Assembly: GCA_016841445.1 (NCBI GenBank)
Contig: JAENZD010000005.1
Location: 62,001-126,000 of the forward strand
DNA length: 64,000 nt
Direction: 5' to 3'
DNA from: Anaerolineaceae bacterium
GTDB taxonomy: Bacteria; Chloroflexota; Anaerolineae; Anaerolineales; Anaerolineaceae
Both the position numbers and the translations under genes were made by a program. Of this stretch, positions 42,476 through 58,326 are shown in pieces (the stretch's first letter is position 1; each line of letters starts with the position of its first letter). The notes beneath the pieces are model-generated. The model made no database searches and was not told the DNA's origin. It saw only the letters and a program-made list of their open reading frames with translations.

Positions 42476-43096
42476 ATGGAAAACAATATTTCAGATCAAG
42501 AGCTAAAAGGTATTGTCCATCGAATCGTTGAAAATACGTTGAACTTGCAATCAAATCAAGAACAAGCCCAACAAACACCTCAGAATACAGGTCAGTTAAA
42601 GGAAAACAATTCCCCTGATTCACCAAGCAAAAATCAAAAAACAGTCGCTATTGGCACGGATCACGGTGGTGTCGATCTAAAAGATACACTGAAGCAATAT
42701 ATGATTGAAAAAGGTTATCAAGTCATCGACTGCGGTACACACACCAAAGATTCTGTAGACTACCCCGATATTGCCCTGGATGTTTCAAGAAAGGTCGCCA
42801 AAGGTGAGGCTTGGTGGGGTGTCATCATCGATGGGGCAGGAATCGGGTCATGTATGGCGGCCAATAAAGTCCCGGGGATTCGCGCGGCGATGTGCTACGA
42901 TTATGCAACGGCATATAACAGCCGTGAGCACAATAACGCAAATGTTCTGACGCTTGGTGCTGGTTTGATCGGCGATAGTCTTGCAAAACAAATTTTAAAC
43001 ACCTGGCTGACCACCGAATTTGCTGGCGGACGCCACGAAAGGCGCGTGAATAAAATTGCTGCCATCGGACAAAGTTATTATAAAGACGGGAAGTAA
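42476..43096 (+). CDS. RpiB/LacAB-family sugar-phosphate isomerase, BMC cargo
   Basis: A 206-residue protein. Residues 1-25 ([20 protein letters not shown]) form an amphipathic helix like an encapsulation peptide, followed by a Gln/Asn/Ser/Pro-rich linker to about residue 57. The RpiB domain then starts at [16 protein letters not shown]. The usual catalytic-Cys motif (CGTGIG) reads [14 protein letters not shown], so Asp takes the Cys position. It would interconvert aldo- and keto-pentose phosphates or a related sugar phosphate. First gene of the shell operon; GGAG precedes the ATG. Confidence 0.85.
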
Positions 43097-43098
43097 TT

Positions 43099-44028
43099 AT
43101 GGCACTTAATAAAACAACGATAGAGAACCTGGTTGAGGTCATCACACGTGAAGTATTACTGGCGATGATCGAACAGGAAGAAAACCAAAAAAGCCCGCAG
43201 GGTGCAACCTGCACAATGGAAGTGGCGAATGGATTAAAAGTCAAAACCTGTTTCGATAATGCGGGTCATGTCATCAGTGCGGGCGCTGAACGCCTCACCT
43301 CAACAGTTGGTGTGATTCCCCAAGATAAGAGGCTGGCGGGGATGATCGACCACACCCTGTTGAAACCTGACGCTACCGCAGATAAGATTGCGCAGCTTTG
43401 TTTTGAAGCTCGGAAATATCACTTCGCCTCCGTATGTGTCAACCCGACCAATGTCAAGCTTTGTGCTGACCTCCTTAAAAATTCAGATGTTGAGGTCTGT
43501 ACGGTGATCGGTTTTCCTTTGGGTGCAACCCCAACCGAAGTAAAAACATTCGAAACCAAAAATGCACTTAATAATGGTGCAACCGAAATTGATATGGTCA
43601 TCAATATCGGGGCACTCAAAACCGGTGATAACGAATTGGTAGCCCGGGATATTAATGAAGTTGTTAAAGTCTCTCATGCTGCGAATGCGTTGGTTAAAGT
43701 CATCATCGAGGCGGCCTTGCTGACCGATGAAGAGAAAATCGTCGCCTGCCTGCTGGCAAAAGAAGCCGGAGCGGACTATGTGAAAACATCGACAGGATTT
43801 TCCAGCGGCGGCGCAACAGTGCACGACGTCGCCCTGATGCGCCAAACGGTTGGCCCTAACCTGGGCGTTAAAGCCGCTGGCGGCATTCATACACATGAAG
43901 AAGCGGAGCAAATGATCGCTGCAGGTGCCACACGGATCGGTGCCAGTGCAGGTGTTAAGATCATCCAGGCTGGATCTTCCGGGCAGAAACCCGAACCCAG
44001 CGCCAGTACACCTGCAAAATCCTATTGA
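43099..44028 (+). CDS. deoC: Deoxyribose-phosphate aldolase with N-terminal targeting helix, BMC cargo
   Basis: A 309-residue DeoC. Residues 3-27 ([20 protein letters not shown]) are an amphipathic helix of the encapsulation type. A linker with two cysteines ([17 protein letters not shown]) leads to the aldolase core at about residue 80 (MIDHTLLKP). The Schiff-base Lys lies in [13 protein letters not shown] and the second active-site Lys in [10 protein letters not shown]. It cleaves deoxyribose 5-phosphate to glyceraldehyde 3-phosphate and acetaldehyde. Only two bases separate it from the isomerase gene. This is the probable signature enzyme of the compartment. Confidence 0.92.
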
Positions 44029-44042
44029 TCGGAGATTGAACC

Positions 44043-44333
44043 ATGTTAATTGCAAAAGTGGTTGGAACAACTGTCTCTACTATAAAAGACGAGAAGATCA
44101 TCGGGCGGAAGCTCCTGATCGTCCGTCAAACGGATGAAAAAGGCGAGCCCTTCGGTAAACCTTTCGTCGCCGTTGATACCGTTAACGCCGGCGTTGGTGA
44201 CCTGGTCTTGACGGCAGGCGGTTCCAGTGCCCGTCAGACTACTATCACCAAAGACCGGCCGGTTGACGCCGTCATAATGGCAATGATCGACTCCCTTGAA
44301 GTCGATGGAAAAGTGACTTTCACGAAAGGCTAA
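44043..44333 (+). CDS. BMC-P pentameric shell vertex protein (EutN/CcmL family), paralogue 1
   Basis: A 96-residue EutN/CcmL-family protein, MLIAKVVGTTVSTIKDEKII, with GVGDLVLTAGGSSARQ. Pentamers close the vertices of the icosahedral shell. It lies 14 bases after deoC. Two more paralogues occur at the operon end, so this shell uses three BMC-P types. Confidence 0.92.
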   Translation: MLIAKVVGTTVSTIKDEKIIGRKLLIVRQTDEKGEPFGKPFVAVDTVNAGVGDLVLTAGGSSARQTTITKDRPVDAVIMAMIDSLEVDGKVTFTKG

Positions 44334-44338
44334 TTTTC

Positions 44339-45799
44339 ATGCAGGCATTTGATAGAGATCTGCAATCGATTCAAGAAGCACGAAACCTGGCTGCCAATGC
44401 CTTTGAGGCTTGGAAAACCTGGTCAACCGCATCACAAGAGCAGGTTGATCGCGTTTGCGCTGCGATGGCACAGGCTGCTCTGTTTGCTTCTGAACGGTTG
44501 GGGATCATGGCGCATGAAGAAACCGGTTATGGCGTCTCTGAACATAAACGCTTAAAAAATGAATTTGCTGCTCGAAATGTCTGGGAGAGTATTAAAGATC
44601 TTAAAACAGTCGGTGTGATTGGCCATGACGTTGAAAAGAAAATCTATGATATCGCCTGGCCGGTTGGCGTGATTGCAGCACTCACCCCTTCAACCAATCC
44701 AACGTCGACCGTAATTTACAAAATCCTGATCGCAGTGAAAGCACGGGATGCGATCGTTTTTGCTCCCCACCCTGCTGCTGCCAGGTGCTCTTATGAAGCC
44801 GCAAAAATCATGGCCCAGGCTGCTGAAGCTAACGGTGCACCTCCCGGATTGGTTTCTTGCATGCAGAATATCAGCCTGGATGGCACCCAGGCGTTGATGC
44901 GCCACAAATATGTTGCACTGATCCTTGCCACCGGCGGGACACCCATGGTCAGGGCAGCCCATTCCACAGGTAAACCCGCCTATGGGGTGGGACCTGGCAA
45001 CGTCCCGGTATATGTGGACCGTTCTGCGGATCTTGAGAAAGCTGCCCGGTATATTGTTGCCAGTAAAGCCTTTGACTATTCAACAATCTGCGCAACAGAA
45101 CAATCCGTGGTTGCAGACAGGCCGATTGCTGCGACCCTTGCCGCACTGATGGAACGAGAAGGTGCCTATTTTATGAATCCTCACGAGACCAACCTTACTC
45201 GAAACCTGGTCTTCCATCCGGATGGGGCTATGAACACGGCTGTTGTCGGTAGGTCCGCTAAGTACATTGCAGGGATGGCCGGTTTTGAAGTTCCCAGAGG
45301 CACACGGATCCTGGTTGCCCGTTTAACGAAAACGGGGCGGGATGAACCCCTCTCACGCGAAAAACTCACAACTGTATTGGGTTGGTATGAAGAAGAAGGC
45401 TGGGAAGCAGGCTGCGAAAGATGCATCCAGCTGATCCAATTCGGTGGACGCGGTCACAGCCTGATCATCCATGCCACCGACCCTGAAGTCATCATGGCTT
45501 TCGGGTTGGAAAAACCCGTCTTCCGGATCGCAGTCAATACCATGGGCACCCTGGGAGCGATCGGGCTTACGACGGGTGTGATGCCCTCCATGACATTAGG
45601 TGCAGGTGGCGTGGGTGGTTCGATTACTGGTGATAATATCACCGCTTACCATCTCTTTAATGTCAAACGTTTAGCTTATGAATTATCTCCCCCGCCGGAC
45701 TCAGCAATGGTCCCCGGTCAACCCAAACCCGGGCCGACTGTTGCTGAAATTGAACATACTGTCCAGCAGGTTGTTGAAGAAATATTGAACCTGAAGTAA
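44339..45799 (+). CDS. CoA-acylating aldehyde dehydrogenase (PduP/EutE-like), BMC cargo
   Basis: A 486-residue aldehyde dehydrogenase. The catalytic Cys is in FDYSTICATEQSVV, and the cofactor region includes ALTPSTNPTSTVIYK. The C-terminal 20 residues (TVAEIEHTVQQVVEEILNLK) form an amphipathic helix after a Pro-rich linker, an encapsulation peptide at the opposite end from the family norm. It should oxidise the acetaldehyde from DeoC to acetyl-CoA with NAD+. The ATG lies 5 bases after the BMC-P stop. No alcohol dehydrogenase or phosphotransacylase is in the operon. Confidence 0.9.
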   Translation: MQAFDRDLQSIQEARNLAANAFEAWKTWSTASQEQVDRVCAAMAQAALFASERLGIMAHEETGYGVSEHKRLKNEFAARNVWESIKDLKTVGVIGHDVEKKIYDIAWPVGVIAALTPSTNPTSTVIYKILIAVKARDAIVFAPHPAAARCSYEAAKIMAQAAEANGAPPGLVSCMQNISLDGTQALMRHKYVALILATGGTPMVRAAHSTGKPAYGVGPGNVPVYVDRSADLEKAARYIVASKAFDYSTICATEQSVVADRPIAATLAALMEREGAYFMNPHETNLTRNLVFHPDGAMNTAVVGRSAKYIAGMAGFEVPRGTRILVARLTKTGRDEPLSREKLTTVLGWYEEEGWEAGCERCIQLIQFGGRGHSLIIHATDPEVIMAFGLEKPVFRIAVNTMGTLGAIGLTTGVMPSMTLGAGGVGGSITGDNITAYHLFNVKRLAYELSPPPDSAMVPGQPKPGPTVAEIEHTVQQVVEEILNLK

Positions 45800-45834: not shown

Positions 45835-46158
45835 ATGGCTGTAGATACAAAATTAATTGCTCTGGGAATGGTTGAAACCAAAGGTCTGGTCGGCTCGATT
45901 GAAGCCGCAGATGCCATGGTCAAATCTGCCAATGTGGTTCTGATCGGTTCGGAATACGTCGGCGGCGGGTTTGTAACCGTGATGGTACGCGGTGATGTTG
46001 GCGCAGTGAAAGCTGCCACAGATGCCGGTGCCGCTGCCGCAAAACGCGTTGGTGAACTGGTATCGGTTCATGTCATCCCCAGGCCACATGACGATGTTGA
46101 AATGATCCTCCCCAAGGGGAGCAAGGGCAGCATCGGCGGCCACAGTTCTGACAAATAA
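45835..46158 (+). CDS. BMC-H hexameric shell protein
   Basis: A 107-residue single BMC domain, [20 protein letters not shown] then [20 protein letters not shown], with a short Gly/Ser/Lys-rich tail. Hexamers tile the shell facets. The pore-loop region reads EYVGGGF. It is the only BMC-H gene in the operon. AGAAAGGA precedes the ATG. Confidence 0.95.
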
Positions 46159-46171
46159 TTCAGGCTGACTT

Positions 46172-47050
46172 GTGTCAGAGTCATACCTGAAGGCTGCGGG
46201 ACAAACCCCGGAGGAATTACTGCAGCGCGCAGCAGAGGTCATTTTGCCTGAGCAAAATGGCAGCGATCACCCATTGATTTTTGGTGAGAAAAATGGTCTC
46301 TGTGTAGGCGTTGACCTGGGTACGGCGTATACCGTCCTGGTCGTGCTGGATCGAACCGGCATTCCCCTGACGGGAGAATTCCGGTTTACACAGGTTGTAA
46401 GGGATGGGTTGGTGGTTGATTTTATCGGTGCTGTGGATATCCTGCGATCCATTAAAAGAAATGTGGAATCACGTCTCGGCAGAGAACTAACCCATGCAGC
46501 CAGCGGATTCCCACCCGGGGTTCCGAGAGCTGAAGTCCAGTCCACAGCTTATGTTGTTGAAGCAGCTGGGATGGATTGTACAGAAATGATTGATGAGCCC
46601 TCGGCTGCTAACAACGTACTCGGTATCCGAGATGGCGTCATCGTCGATATCGGCGGCGGCACCACTGGGATCGCAGTTCTGGAGGATGGCAAAGTGGTTC
46701 ATACGGCAGATGAAGCAACCGGCGGAACACACCTCTCACTGGTCATTGCCGGGGCTTCAAACATCAGCTTCGAAGCCGCTGAGACTCTGAAAAAGGATCC
46801 TGCTGAACAGAGTCGTTTGTTCCCAATCGTCAGACCGGTAATGGAAAAAATGGGTACGATCATTGAACGGAACATCCGTGGGGCGAGGACAAAGTCGATC
46901 ACTCTGGTCGGCGGGACGTCCATATTCCCCGGAATTGACAAGGTCATCCAGGAAACAACCGGATGCCCGACCCGGATAGCCCCAAGTCCATTGTTTGTCA
47001 CCCCGGTCGGAATCGCAATGCAGGATAGAAACAAAATAAGCTTGAATTAA
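46172..47050 (+). CDS. EutJ-like actin/HSP70-fold ATPase of the microcompartment operon
   Basis: A 292-residue actin-like ATPase. Phosphate-1 is GVDLGTAYTVLVVLD, phosphate-2 VVDIGGGTTGIAVLEDG and the adenosine motif LVGGTSIFPG. EutJ proteins accompany shell operons and are thought to help cargo folding or assembly. The role is unproven. The GTG start at 46172 lies 13 bases after the BMC-H stop. Confidence 0.87.
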   Translation: MSESYLKAAGQTPEELLQRAAEVILPEQNGSDHPLIFGEKNGLCVGVDLGTAYTVLVVLDRTGIPLTGEFRFTQVVRDGLVVDFIGAVDILRSIKRNVESRLGRELTHAASGFPPGVPRAEVQSTAYVVEAAGMDCTEMIDEPSAANNVLGIRDGVIVDIGGGTTGIAVLEDGKVVHTADEATGGTHLSLVIAGASNISFEAAETLKKDPAEQSRLFPIVRPVMEKMGTIIERNIRGARTKSITLVGGTSIFPGIDKVIQETTGCPTRIAPSPLFVTPVGIAMQDRNKISLN

Positions 47051-47067
47051 ATGTGTTAGGAGAAATT

Positions 47068-47694
47068 ATGGCTGAAGGTTTTTCATTACGGTGCTATTGT
47101 TTTATTGATCGGATGCAAGCGCAGTATTCAGCATTCATCGGGACGGTCACACAAGGTGATTTGCCTGTGGAAGGGATGGCTTCCCTTTACGTGGAGATGG
47201 CTCCCGGCAATGAGGTTTTCCGTGTCGTGGATATTGCAGTAAAAGCGACAGAAGCAAAACCCGGTGCCCAGATCGTCGAACGCGAATTCGGGATGTTTGA
47301 AGTTCATTCCCTCAACCAGGCTGCTGTTAAAGAAGCTGGCCGGGTTGTATTGGATCGACTGGGTCTCAAAGTTGAAGACCGCATCAAACCGCAGGTCGTC
47401 TCAAGCCAGGTTATCACACGGGTTGATTCTTACCAGGCGCAGCTTTTGAACCGTTTCCGCCGCGGCAGCATCCTGGTGCCCGGTGAAACAATGCTGGTTT
47501 TGGAATGCGCCCCTGCTGCTTATATTAATTACGCCTGCAATGAGGCTGAAAAGAACGCCAACATCAAGATCGTTCATGTTTCTTCGGTTGGTCGCTTTGG
47601 CCGGATGTGGCTTTCAGGCAGCGAATCTGAAATCGTCACAGCAAAGAATGCCGCGATCAGCGCCCTGGACGACCTGGAAGGCGTCCCCGCCTGA
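47068..47694 (+). CDS. BMC-T trimeric (tandem-domain) shell protein
   Basis: A 208-residue protein with two BMC-type halves (FIDRMQAQYSAFIGTVTQGD; RGSILVPGETMLVLECAPAA ... IKIVHVSSVGRFGRM). Trimers form pseudohexagonal tiles with larger, sometimes gated, pores that can pass bulky substrates or cofactors. The ATG at 47068 with TTAGGAG upstream is used, not a GTG at 47053. Confidence 0.88.
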   Translation: MAEGFSLRCYCFIDRMQAQYSAFIGTVTQGDLPVEGMASLYVEMAPGNEVFRVVDIAVKATEAKPGAQIVEREFGMFEVHSLNQAAVKEAGRVVLDRLGLKVEDRIKPQVVSSQVITRVDSYQAQLLNRFRRGSILVPGETMLVLECAPAAYINYACNEAEKNANIKIVHVSSVGRFGRMWLSGSESEIVTAKNAAISALDDLEGVPA

Positions 47695-47724
47695 GAAATG
47701 TCATCATCTCGATAGGAGTTACTT

Positions 47725-48087
47725 ATGCCCAAACAATTCTATACGGAACGAGATATCGAAGATATGGCGGCCCACGGTCAATATTCCCTCACCGTTGGTG
47801 AGGATGTTGTCCTGACAGAGCTTGCATTTGAAAAAGCTGAACGGTTAGGTGTTAAATTGGTTCAACCCCACCAAACACCCCCCGCAGCTCCCATCCGCCC
47901 GTATCTTTCTGACCCTGTTAAACCAGCAGGATCAGCTCAAATTTCCAGCTCAACACTGAGTGCAAGGAGTTCAGATTTGAGGGAGCGAATTCGATCTGCT
48001 GTAAAGGAGAAATTGGGAAACCAAATTGATCCCAATTTGCTGGAAACAATCATCACCCGGGTTTTGAATAATGTAGGGATTGAATAA
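47725..48087 (+). CDS. Small BMC-associated protein with C-terminal amphipathic helices
   Basis: A 120-residue protein of unknown function. The N-terminal 45 residues (FYTERDIEDMAAHGQYSLTV, then DVVLTELAFEKAERLGVKLV) resemble the leading segment seen in several BMC-associated proteins. A Pro/Ser-rich linker follows. Two helices close the protein, LRERIRSAVKEKLG and NLLETIITRVLNNVGIE, the last amphipathic like an encapsulation peptide. It may be an adaptor or scaffold that links cargo to shell. It sits between BMC-T and the two last BMC-P genes. Confidence 0.7.
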   Translation: MPKQFYTERDIEDMAAHGQYSLTVGEDVVLTELAFEKAERLGVKLVQPHQTPPAAPIRPYLSDPVKPAGSAQISSSTLSARSSDLRERIRSAVKEKLGNQIDPNLLETIITRVLNNVGIE

Positions 48088-48090
48088 GCG

Positions 48091-48411
48091 ATGCTGTTCG
48101 GACGAGTTCACGGAACCGCTGTTTGCACGATCAAATACCCCGGAACGGAAGGGGTCAAGTTATTGATCGTCCAACCGGTCAACAAGAACCTGGAACCCAT
48201 CGGTAAGCTTCAGGTAGCAGCTGATGTCGTCCAGGCTGGTGCGGGAGATCTGTGTGTGATGGTGCGTTCCCGTGAAGCAGCCCTGGCAATGCGAGACATC
48301 ACCTTTGTACCTGTTGACCTCGCACTTGTCGGCATTGTTGATGAGCTTGAAGTCCGTCCGGATGAAGACTTTGATTTTAACCTTCACACCGGCATAAATC
48401 AATTCACATAA
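48091..48411 (+). CDS. BMC-P pentameric shell vertex protein, paralogue 2
   Basis: A 106-residue EutN/CcmL-family protein, MLFGRVHGTAVCTIKYPGTE and GAGDLCVMVRSREAAL, with a longer C-terminal tail than paralogue 1. It begins 3 bases after the preceding stop. Confidence 0.9.
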   Translation: MLFGRVHGTAVCTIKYPGTEGVKLLIVQPVNKNLEPIGKLQVAADVVQAGAGDLCVMVRSREAALAMRDITFVPVDLALVGIVDELEVRPDEDFDFNLHTGINQFT

Positions 48412-48422
48412 TGGATTAACAA

Positions 48423-48692
48423 ATGGTTATTGGAAAAGTTGTTGGCACCATAGTGACGACCATCAGTCACCCGCACTACAAGAACCGGCGTTTGCTGGTT
48501 GTTCAACCCTTGCTACCTGAAGATGAAGATCCTTCTGGCGATTTTATCGCGCTTGACAACACACACGCTGGAATTGGGGACACCGTGCTGGTAAACCGGG
48601 ACGGCAATGGTGCCCGGCAGGTTTTGGAAAATCCGGATGCCTGTGTGATCTCCGTAATCATCGGGATAGTAGATTCCGTATCCATCATTTAG
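48423..48692 (+). CDS. BMC-P pentameric shell vertex protein, paralogue 3
   Basis: An 89-residue EutN/CcmL-family protein, MVIGKVVGTIVTTISHPHYK and GIGDTVLVNRDGNGARQ. It ends the microcompartment operon. Downstream, 48693-48912 holds no gene. No convincing T-tailed terminator was found, only a weak AACC/GGTT hairpin near 48696. Confidence 0.9.
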   Translation: MVIGKVVGTIVTTISHPHYKNRRLLVVQPLLPEDEDPSGDFIALDNTHAGIGDTVLVNRDGNGARQVLENPDACVISVIIGIVDSVSII

Positions 48693-57384: not shown

Positions 57385-58326
57385 ATGCGACATGTATTGA
57401 AAGCCCTTTTGGTAATTTCTCTGGTCACATGGCTGTCCTTAATGATCACTCAACCCGCCTCTGCCCAAACCGGCACCGCTGCAGAATTGATTGCTGGGGT
57501 TAACGCTTTGCGGCAAAACCAGGGATTGGCACCCTACGCTGTCGATTCCTACCTGATGAGTTACGCCCAATCGCACAGTGATTACATGGCTTCTCTCGGG
57601 ACATGGACCCACATAAGGGCGGACGGCAGCACAGCCTTCGATGTCGGTATCAAAGAAAACGTAGCCATGGGTACAAATATGTCCGTGAGCTTCTGTATCT
57701 ACACCGTCTGGTCTGATTGGGTCCACTGGGAGACGATGGTAGGGTATCAAACTGGCAGTGTTGGAGCAGGTGTTGCTGTTGCCAATGGTAATGTTTTTTA
57801 TACATTGAATGTCTCCCCGGGCAATACTGCAAATACTGAATACACTTCAATAAACCTGGAACCAATCGCTCAAAGCACGTCTGAATATATTGGGCAGGTT
57901 ATCACTAACACACCTGATCCGGATGGGATCATTATGCACACAGTCCAGTATGGTGAAACACTGTGGTCGATTGCTATTGCTTATGGTGTGACCATTGATG
58001 AAATTCTGACGAACAGCGGTCTTTCCCTGGGGACAACGGAAGTAGTGGAAGGTCAGCCGTTGTTGATCCGACCCGCAACAGATCCTACTGAAGCACCCAC
58101 CAGCACCGCCACCCCAGATCCCGGAACGCCCACACCCACGCAGCCCCGCCCGACCATGACCCCCTTCCCAACCCGGACACCCATGCCCACACATACCCCC
58201 ACACAGCCTCCATCTTTCGTTACCCGCACTCTTGGGCAAACAAGATATGTCGCCATAGGGTTGATCCTGGCCAGTGGGCTAGGGATCATCCTGGTCATCT
58301 ACCTGGGATTCCTTAAAAAGTCTTAA
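57385..58326 (+). CDS. CAP (SCP/PR-1) domain protein with LysM and C-terminal membrane anchor
   Basis: A 313-residue exported protein. The signal peptide (about 1-27) ends near QPASAQ. A CAP domain (about 30-155) has LIAGVNALRQNQGLAPYAVD, SHSDYMASLGTWTH and ENVAMG. A LysM module (about 190-235) reads HTVQYGETLWSIAIAYGVT. A Pro/Thr-rich wall-spanning linker (TPTQPRPTMTPFPTRTPMPT) and a C-terminal membrane helix follow. It likely binds peptidoglycan. The CAP activity is unknown. Confidence 0.87.
   Translation: MRHVLKALLVISLVTWLSLMITQPASAQTGTAAELIAGVNALRQNQGLAPYAVDSYLMSYAQSHSDYMASLGTWTHIRADGSTAFDVGIKENVAMGTNMSVSFCIYTVWSDWVHWETMVGYQTGSVGAGVAVANGNVFYTLNVSPGNTANTEYTSINLEPIAQSTSEYIGQVITNTPDPDGIIMHTVQYGETLWSIAIAYGVTIDEILTNSGLSLGTTEVVEGQPLLIRPATDPTEAPTSTATPDPGTPTPTQPRPTMTPFPTRTPMPTHTPTQPPSFVTRTLGQTRYVAIGLILASGLGIILVIYLGFLKKS

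Follow-up and report, generated by a model that had tools for sequence, protein, structure and literature searches.

A stand-alone homologue of the EutQ N-terminal region, encoded in an Anaerolineaceae sugar-phosphate microcompartment operon, is a probable shell-cargo adaptor

How metabolosomes join their cargo to the shell is an open question, and a natural, enzyme-free adaptor of 120 residues would be a minimal tool with which encapsulation could be tested and engineered. The window analysed here, a stretch of 64,000 nucleotides from an Anaerolineaceae bacterium (contig JAENZD010000005.1), raises this question through one small gene (47725..48087, forward strand, stop included). Its open reading frame, proposed in the initial annotation, was borne out: it has 120 codons beginning with ATG, a likely ribosome-binding site upstream (AGGAG, 47714..47718, forward strand, read from the sequence), and intact orthologues in nine of the ten loci with relatives found in genome_contigs. 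These relatives are 49-84% identical to the window protein and belong to MAGs that carry the label Anaerolineaceae, Brevefilum or Chloroflexi; the tenth locus, L009, was excluded from the alignments on account of its Ns and an apparent frameshift. Similar ribosome-binding sites stand 5' of most orthologues, with a weaker one in L010.

The gene lies inside a compact, same-strand operon for a sugar-phosphate (SPU) microcompartment, in the order rpiB, deoC, BMC-P, AldDH, BMC-H, eutJ, BMC-T, adaptor gene, BMC-P, BMC-P. The first two genes encode cargo enzymes: rpiB (42476..43096; PF02502, 2e-55), which begins with an encapsulation-peptide-like helix and predicted client (42476..42547), and deoC (43099..44028; TIGR00126, 4.3e-85), with an N-terminal peptide at about residues 5-24. 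They are followed by a BMC-P gene of the EutN/CcmL type (44043..44333), an acylating aldehyde dehydrogenase (AldDH, 44339..45799; TIGR02518, 6.4e-171, 569.5 bits and thus under the cutoff of 620.1) with a C-terminal peptide-like tail (about 45740-45796), an EutM-like BMC-H (45835..46158; NF012018, 3.2e-39, 133.2 bits against a cutoff of 133) and eutJ (46172..47050; NF011660, 3.2e-103). Immediately 5' of the adaptor gene is a BMC-T of the double-layer CcmP / HO-5816 type (47053..47694; 4ht5, 2.7e-64), whose product gave no Pfam family at E 0.001. Two BMC-P genes (48091..48411 and 48423..48692) end the series, all of it on the forward strand. According to the 2021 catalog, all SPU subtypes have DeoC-type (PF01791) and RpiB-type (PF02502) enzymes in common, and SPU6, placed in Anaerolineae, is tied to EUT3 via AldDH and BMC-T (PMC8217296). 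The window locus was assigned to the SPU6 type by gene content and the catalog's Anaerolineae remark only. Its own genome has one adaptor copy and no match to PF06249 (EutQ) at E 0.001.

The initial annotation had described a short N-terminal domain, a linker and a single terminal helix. The N-terminal domain and the disordered linker were recovered, but AlphaFold2 gives two C-terminal helices rather than one. In the model (mean pLDDT 76, pTM 0.36), the N-terminal module of residues 1-46 (47725..47862) has a b-a-b-b-a-b arrangement, with strands and helices within residues 4-46 at a pLDDT of about 79-89 by block of ten. Residues 47-78 (47863..47958) are unstructured, with pLDDT below 50 at 67-79, and were taken as a flexible linker from the model and from their low identity. 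The helices H3 (residues 79-97, 47959..48015) and H4 (residues 103-117, 48031..48075) complete the protein. By hydrophobic moment, H3 was not clearly amphipathic (fraction of shuffles reaching the value 0.52) and H4 only weakly so (0.06). Mean identity to the window protein across the 21 family members, itself counted, differed by region: it was 0.64 in residues 1-46 and 0.62 in residues 83-117, against 0.19 in linker residues 63-82. Within the linker, the family alignment revealed a conserved motif, PPAAPIRPYLS (residues 52-62, 47878..47910). Its PYLS/PYMS core is present in 14 of the 21 members, by inspection in 14/16 SPU-type and 0/5 EUT-locus copies, and the linker is variable elsewhere.

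No Pfam family matched the window protein up to E 10, which agrees with the earlier remark that it has no enzymatic signature; on the same search we dropped the reading as an enzyme. Neither the BMC shell domain PF00936 nor EutN_CcmL PF03319 was found in it by Pfam. Searches for solved-structure relatives by sequence gave chance matches only (best E 0.78). Foldseek with the AlphaFold2 model against the PDB produced 232 matches up to E 10, the best at 0.34 and none at or below 0.001, and VIA-align gave Z >=2 in 191 of 880 chains and Z >=5 in none; these structural searches say nothing firm on fold novelty because the whole 120-residue model was used rather than the module alone.

The only NCBIfam match of the window protein was EutQ (E 0.038, residues 3-57, below cutoff). 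Since the single sequence finds EutQ at no better than this value, profiles were needed. The profile of the 21-member family matched residues 1-105 of E. coli/Klebsiella EutQ at E 1.3e-8 (probability 95.6), aligning adaptor residues 2-120 with EutQ 1-101 over the full length and collinearly. The score was 50.6, as against a mean of 10.6 and a maximum of 19.5 for 200 column shuffles (0/200 reaching it). Both halves contributed on their own: the N-domain alone matched seven EutQ N-termini at E 1.1e-12, and the last 44 adaptor residues alone scored 24.1 against H3/H4 of EutQ (maximum 14.6 in 100 shuffles). Measured against the EutQ family (PF06249 / NF012001), the protein is homologous in the N-terminal part and has no C-terminal cupin. 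It probably works like the EutQ N-terminal adaptor, but it is no EutQ member, as the cupin is absent.

This homology has functional implications, because the EutQ N-terminal region is reported as a non-catalytic shell-cargo adaptor in Salmonella (PMC12487888). In that account, shell and cargo separate once EutQ 9-99 is removed, whereas loss of the cupin does not prevent compartment formation; H1/H2 bind the shell and are needed for shell association, and H3/H4 bind cargo peptides. The same source reports that L89A or V93A abolishes binding of the EutC peptide. Klebsiella EutQ carries the letters of the Salmonella paper at positions 64, 67, 75, 89 and 93, and these map to L85, R88, K96, I109 and V113 of the adaptor. 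Residue class is kept at three of the five, R67 (R88; R in 17/21 family members), L89 (I109; I/V in 21/21) and V93 (V113; V in 19/21), and E64 and Q75 are replaced by L85 and K96 in the window protein.

On the shell side, EutQ without residues 1-100 loses EutM in pull-downs, its binding was mapped to EutM K53 and D57, which were needed in vitro, and to Q64, and Q64K abolished binding of the Salmonella proteins, as described in the 2016 study (PMC4827028). The window BMC-H keeps the equivalents of K53 and D57 and has K for Q64. That study took the EutQ-binding EutM surface as presumed cytosol-facing, which does not fit a lumen-side bridge (PMC4827028). As a separate observation, the residue at EutM position 57 is D in the Anaerolineales loci with a stand-alone adaptor, versus E in seven other Chloroflexota SPU loci (L064, L065, L067, L068, L071, L072 and L095); it is possible that this position co-varies with the type of adaptor.

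We therefore looked upon the protein as a dedicated adaptor, the EutQ N-terminal region as its own gene, and from the sequence comparisons we consider this reading probable. Residues 1-46, the predicted counterpart of EutQ H1/H2, would dock on the shell through the EutM-like BMC-H, the BMC-T of the preceding gene, or both, and the flexible linker would set the reach. The hairpin of H3, a predicted binding site for cargo peptides, and H4 would take up the encapsulation peptides of RpiB and AldDH, and probably that of DeoC, and in this way the shell might capture the core. Which half meets the shell and which the cargo we infer from the Salmonella EutQ data and the mapped residues. The initial annotation had arrived at an adaptor from the layout, and full-length homology to a non-catalytic region with a published adaptor role gives that suggestion good support. 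Its comparison with proteins that nucleate cores stays conjectural: in the nearest system studied, assembly is said to begin at the shell, and EutQ is the bridge to the cargo. What the analysis shows is the gene, the operon, the homology to EutQ 1-101, the retention of most key EutQ residue classes and the association of the module with BMC genes (below). Speaking against it are the changes of Q75 and E64 to K96 and L85, the K at BMC-H position 64, and one genome with an rpiB-deoC-BMC-P locus and no detectable copy (G104), as well as the weak amphipathicity of the two helices, the lack of a cupin-mediated dimer and the cytosol-facing surface assumed for EutM.

The cargo enzymes offer a further comparison. 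The Anaerolineales SPU loci examined encode helical extensions at the N-terminus of RpiB and DeoC and at the C-terminus of AldDH, and the last helix of the window protein had been likened to such neighbouring tags. For RpiB the likeness was clear: H4 scored 22.8 in hhalign against its N-terminal peptide, a value reached by 0/100 shuffles (maximum 12.8). The AldDH tail also matched (15.5, 0/100 shuffles, maximum 12.3), aligning mainly to H3. The DeoC peptide was not significantly similar to H4 (11.6, reached by 6/100 shuffles), and for this enzyme the suggestion did not hold. The similarity of H4 to the RpiB peptide could also be explained if the protein were only a core condenser, in which H4 acts like an encapsulation peptide and promotes cohesion among those of the cargo, the N-domain serves folding or solubility, and the shell is not contacted directly. 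The finding that the N-terminal peptide of PduM targets the core and not the shell (PMC12108088) would fit this explanation, too. We nevertheless regard it as unlikely, given that the N-domain equals the helices in conservation, is the part common to several microcompartment types, and corresponds to the H1/H2 segment required for shell association in Salmonella (PMC12487888).

The distribution of the family is in line with the adaptor reading. The family model matched 14 of 400 Chloroflexota genomes at E <=0.01, 12 of them strongly (E <=3.9e-8); the two weakest, G137 and G270, are kept in the tally but treated as chance matches because their E is above 1e-3 and they have no PF03319 match. BMC-P is present in 30 of the 400 genomes and in 11 of the 12 strong ones, all within those 30 (Fisher p 7e-13). 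Four of the 12 (G000, G200, G224 and G343) gave a row to the model or share a protein with one; outside the model rows BMC-P was present in 7/8. G387, the one strong genome without BMC-P, is assembled in about 200 contigs and has its copy beside BMC-T. In the order to which the window belongs, the adaptor was found in 11 of 12 sampled genomes bearing BMC-P. In G104 (L055), whose locus contains rpiB, deoC and three BMC-P genes, no genome-wide match to an adaptor or module model was detected at E 0.01, so the adaptor is not universally required. Cargo-tag-like N-termini are seen in this SPU locus despite the lack of a detectable copy.

The homologues had been expected to be confined to SPU loci, which is not so. 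Five Anaerolineales ethanolamine loci (G216, G028, G160, G224 and G337) carry a copy at the locus end, together with eutA, eutB, eutC, eutL, AldDH, BMC-H, EutQ, EutJ and BMC-T, and EutT in 2/5. In Anaerolineales ethanolamine loci, EutQ proteins bear the module themselves. Four of the genomes (G028, G160, G224 and G337) have a second copy in a compact SPU locus. Among 24 neighbour rows, in which contigs L002/L101 and L010/L060 each appear twice and one row is the aminotransferase discussed below, BMC-T lies upstream of the adaptor in 17 and BMC-P downstream in 18. This steady company could mean that the protein assists a specific shell protein or EutJ, for instance as an assembly factor for BMC-P or BMC-T, and does not link cargo. 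We find that improbable, since five compact SPU loci (L010 = L060, L058, L062, L096 and L098) keep the adaptor with rpiB, deoC and BMC-P and have no BMC-T, EutJ or AldDH in the locus. Still more improbable is that the gene is what remains of an EutQ gene after loss of the cupin and no longer serves as a bridge. Full-length homology to EutQ 1-101 without a cupin and the module-bearing EutQ of the ethanolamine loci would suit this reading, but the gene is conserved and intact in nine of ten genome_contigs loci and occurs in nearly all sampled BMC-P-bearing genomes of the order, and copies coexisting with full EutQ in five ethanolamine loci are not simply decayed EutQ.

Returning to the adaptor, we found its N-terminal module also in fused form. 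In six other Chloroflexota genomes (G372, G144, G184, G011, G002 and G015), RpiB carries the module as a fusion, preceded by an N-terminal peptide, and these SPU genomes have no stand-alone gene. Eight genomes (G000, G168, G200, G028, G160, G224, G248 and G337) have a stand-alone copy in the rpiB-deoC locus; the reading of G343 stopped short of rpiB, and the copy of G318 sits on another contig. In none of these rpiB-deoC loci did both forms occur together. Neither form was present in at least six loci (G104, G345, G131, G235, G264 and G363), nor in G203, which is cut at the 5' end.

A comparable division of parts was observed in other phyla. The EutQ proteins of Enterococcus faecalis and Listeria are described as being without the first three helices (PMC12487888). 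In the eut loci of Acetoanaerobium, Cetobacterium and Fusobacterium vincentii, EutQ consists of a short N-terminal peptide-like stretch and the cupin, without the module, and a separate ORF of 88-115 residues carries the module, a linker and a helical-looking C-terminus. This ORF lies 5' of eutH and, in Cetobacterium and Fusobacterium vincentii, beside eutN. The family C-terminus scored only 17.1 against the H3/H4-like C-termini of the three small ORFs (shuffle maximum 16.3, 0/100). The Cetobacterium ORF is the weakest case, with E 0.38 under the model m0 described below, rising to 7.7 when the larger set was searched; the enlarged model m1, among whose rows it is not, gave 3e-4. A small module ORF was not detected in Listeria and C. 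difficile; these and the two Fusobacteriota have a TIGR02536-type protein that ends in the module. In the F. nucleatum eut cluster, the assembly role of two hypothetical proteins was left open in 2024 (PMC11796344); judging from position only, we infer that they are the ORFs seen in F. vincentii.

How far the module extends was assessed with a family-only model (Pn, from the window-protein family), applied to 4301 mechanically called ORFs of the window and the fetched loci and to 4301 reversed decoys. At E <=0.5, Pn matched, outside the family, eight EutQ, two TIGR02536-type proteins, one PduM, the aminotransferase and the small stand-alone ORFs from Acetoanaerobium and Fusobacterium. The first ORF unrelated to microcompartments, from the window, appeared at E 0.82 and the first reversed decoy at E 15. 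RpiB, Salmonella PduM, C. difficile TIGR02536 and a malate-dehydrogenase-like fusion reached only E 1.3-3.8, among chance hits, and Enterococcus EutQ was absent from the Pn match list for the 4301 ORFs; under Pn alone, the evidence for a wider module is thin. A second model, m0, was seeded with the window-protein family, EutQ and the aminotransferase only. With it, four more PduM copies, RpiB from four loci, two additional TIGR02536 proteins, the C-terminus of PduL and the malate-dehydrogenase-like fusion all came in at E <=0.12. Seeds apart, no ORF outside BMC loci reached E 0.12, and the first decoy came at 2.8. The model m2 includes rows of PduM, RpiB, PduL and TIGR02536, so that its E-values for these are not independent, and the independent figures for the wider module are those of Pn and m0. 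The NCBIfam model TIGR02536 itself matched the 115-residue Fusobacterium protein (model 162-205 against residues 3-44, E 6e-6) through its C-terminal end, independently of our module models.

A 27-row module alignment (A3) matched 23 of the 400 Chloroflexota genomes at E <=0.01 and 19 at E <=1e-5. Its weakest four (G095, G130, G233 and G277; E >1e-3) are included in the 23 but treated as chance, being weak and having no PF03319 match. BMC-P was present in 18 of the 19 strong genomes (p 2e-22, with 30 BMC-P genomes in 400), an association inflated by the fact that A3 rows come from 10 of the 19; among strong genomes that gave no rows it was present in 9/9 (p 6e-13 over 390 row-free genomes). 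Twelve BMC-P genomes had no A3 match, ten of them from one family. Beyond the Chloroflexota genomes, the searches covered genome_contigs, scanned once with the window protein, as well as E. coli and plasmid-type records, and tblastn of the window protein against plasmids gave no match.

Several other proteins carry the module. A PduL-like protein (named by eye) in the eut locus of Acetoanaerobium noterae (L076:3598-4500) has it at the C-terminus, and a malate-dehydrogenase-like protein (also named by eye) in L073 (G231:C79, about 57617-57739, minus strand) begins with it, in a locus with BMC-T, EutJ, AldDH, BMC-H and BMC-P. A 498-residue class III aminotransferase-like protein likewise begins with the module and adjoins an APH-type kinase (L031 / L063, G387:C125); the 14 kb of this contig that were read contain no shell genes. 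From the pairing, one might guess at a B12-free ethanolamine kinase and phosphoethanolamine lyase sent to a microcompartment. Sharing of the module by EutT is borderline, its N-terminal module scoring 22.1 against the window family (shuffle maximum 19.7) and E. coli EutT giving E 10 under m0, and so is that by P0004, a hypothetical protein of Enterococcus, for which the enlarged models gave only 0.84 and 0.18. The initial annotation had named clear homology to a known enzyme, for example a cobalamin adenosyltransferase, as evidence that would count against its reading, and no such homology emerged: PF01923 is absent from the window protein, and the similarity to the N-terminal module of EutT is weak. 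Identity with EutT was rejected on this basis.

We lean slightly towards a general view, in which the module of about 45 residues would be a shell-docking domain of metabolosomes that is paired with encapsulation-peptide-like helices to make adaptors. It would occur as a gene of its own, in SPU loci of Anaerolineales and in eut loci of some Clostridia and of Fusobacteriota; as a part of EutQ, PduM and TIGR02536 proteins; or fused to enzymes, namely RpiB, PduL, EutT, the malate-dehydrogenase-like protein and the class III aminotransferase. If true, PduM and EutQ would belong to a single adaptor system, and in Gram-positives other genes would partly supply the helices that EutQ is said to lack there. 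The two F. nucleatum hypothetical proteins would gain a suggested role, if they are the same as the F. vincentii ORFs (PMC11796344). In the open-licence texts consulted, we found no prior description of the stand-alone form or of the shared module. Published sources state that homologues of PduM are not known outside Pdu (PMC12108088), that Pdu operons appear without an EutQ homologue (PMC4827028) and that no specific additional adaptors exist in metabolosomes (PMC6971018), and these three printed statements would need revision. As PduM is reported to be without relatives outside Pdu, sharing of the module would be a new finding, and one open to direct test.

Among known systems, the N-terminal region of EutQ (residues 1-99) from Salmonella, E. 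coli and Klebsiella comes closest, having like the adaptor a module, a linker and an H3/H4 hairpin, and a place in a BMC locus. The predicted order of module, disordered linker and helix pair equals the published order of H1, H2, flexible region, H3 and H4. In contrast to EutQ, the adaptor, at 120 residues and with no Pfam family, has no cupin / acetate-kinase domain, its linker motif PPAAPIRPYLS is SPU-specific, and the cargo of its operon is RpiB, DeoC and AldDH, differing from that of the EutQ system. EutQ dimerises through its cupin, and the valency of an adaptor without one therefore differs.

PduM, which is reported to link core and shell in the Pdu BMC, its loss partly separating the two, resembles the adaptor in that its C-terminal 43 or so residues match the module (hhalign of the family N-domain with PduM, 25.1 against a shuffle maximum of 19.1). 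This is a weak, profile-based match, Salmonella PduM giving E 0.004 under m0 but E 2 under the family-only model. The order in PduM is the reverse of that in the adaptor, with the encapsulation peptide first, the module last and an extra domain in the middle. The TIGR02536 family of Gram-positive and Fusobacterial eut loci also has a C-terminal module like that of the adaptor, and its gene lies just 5' of EutN, as PduM does 5' of PduN. Its members, of 190-241 residues, have a further domain that is absent from the window protein, for which the NCBIfam scan gave no full-length TIGR02536 match. CcmN, CsoS2 and PduB 1-37, the linkers named alongside EutQ (PMC12487888), perform the same job of connecting cargo and shell, and their likeness to the adaptor is one of function.
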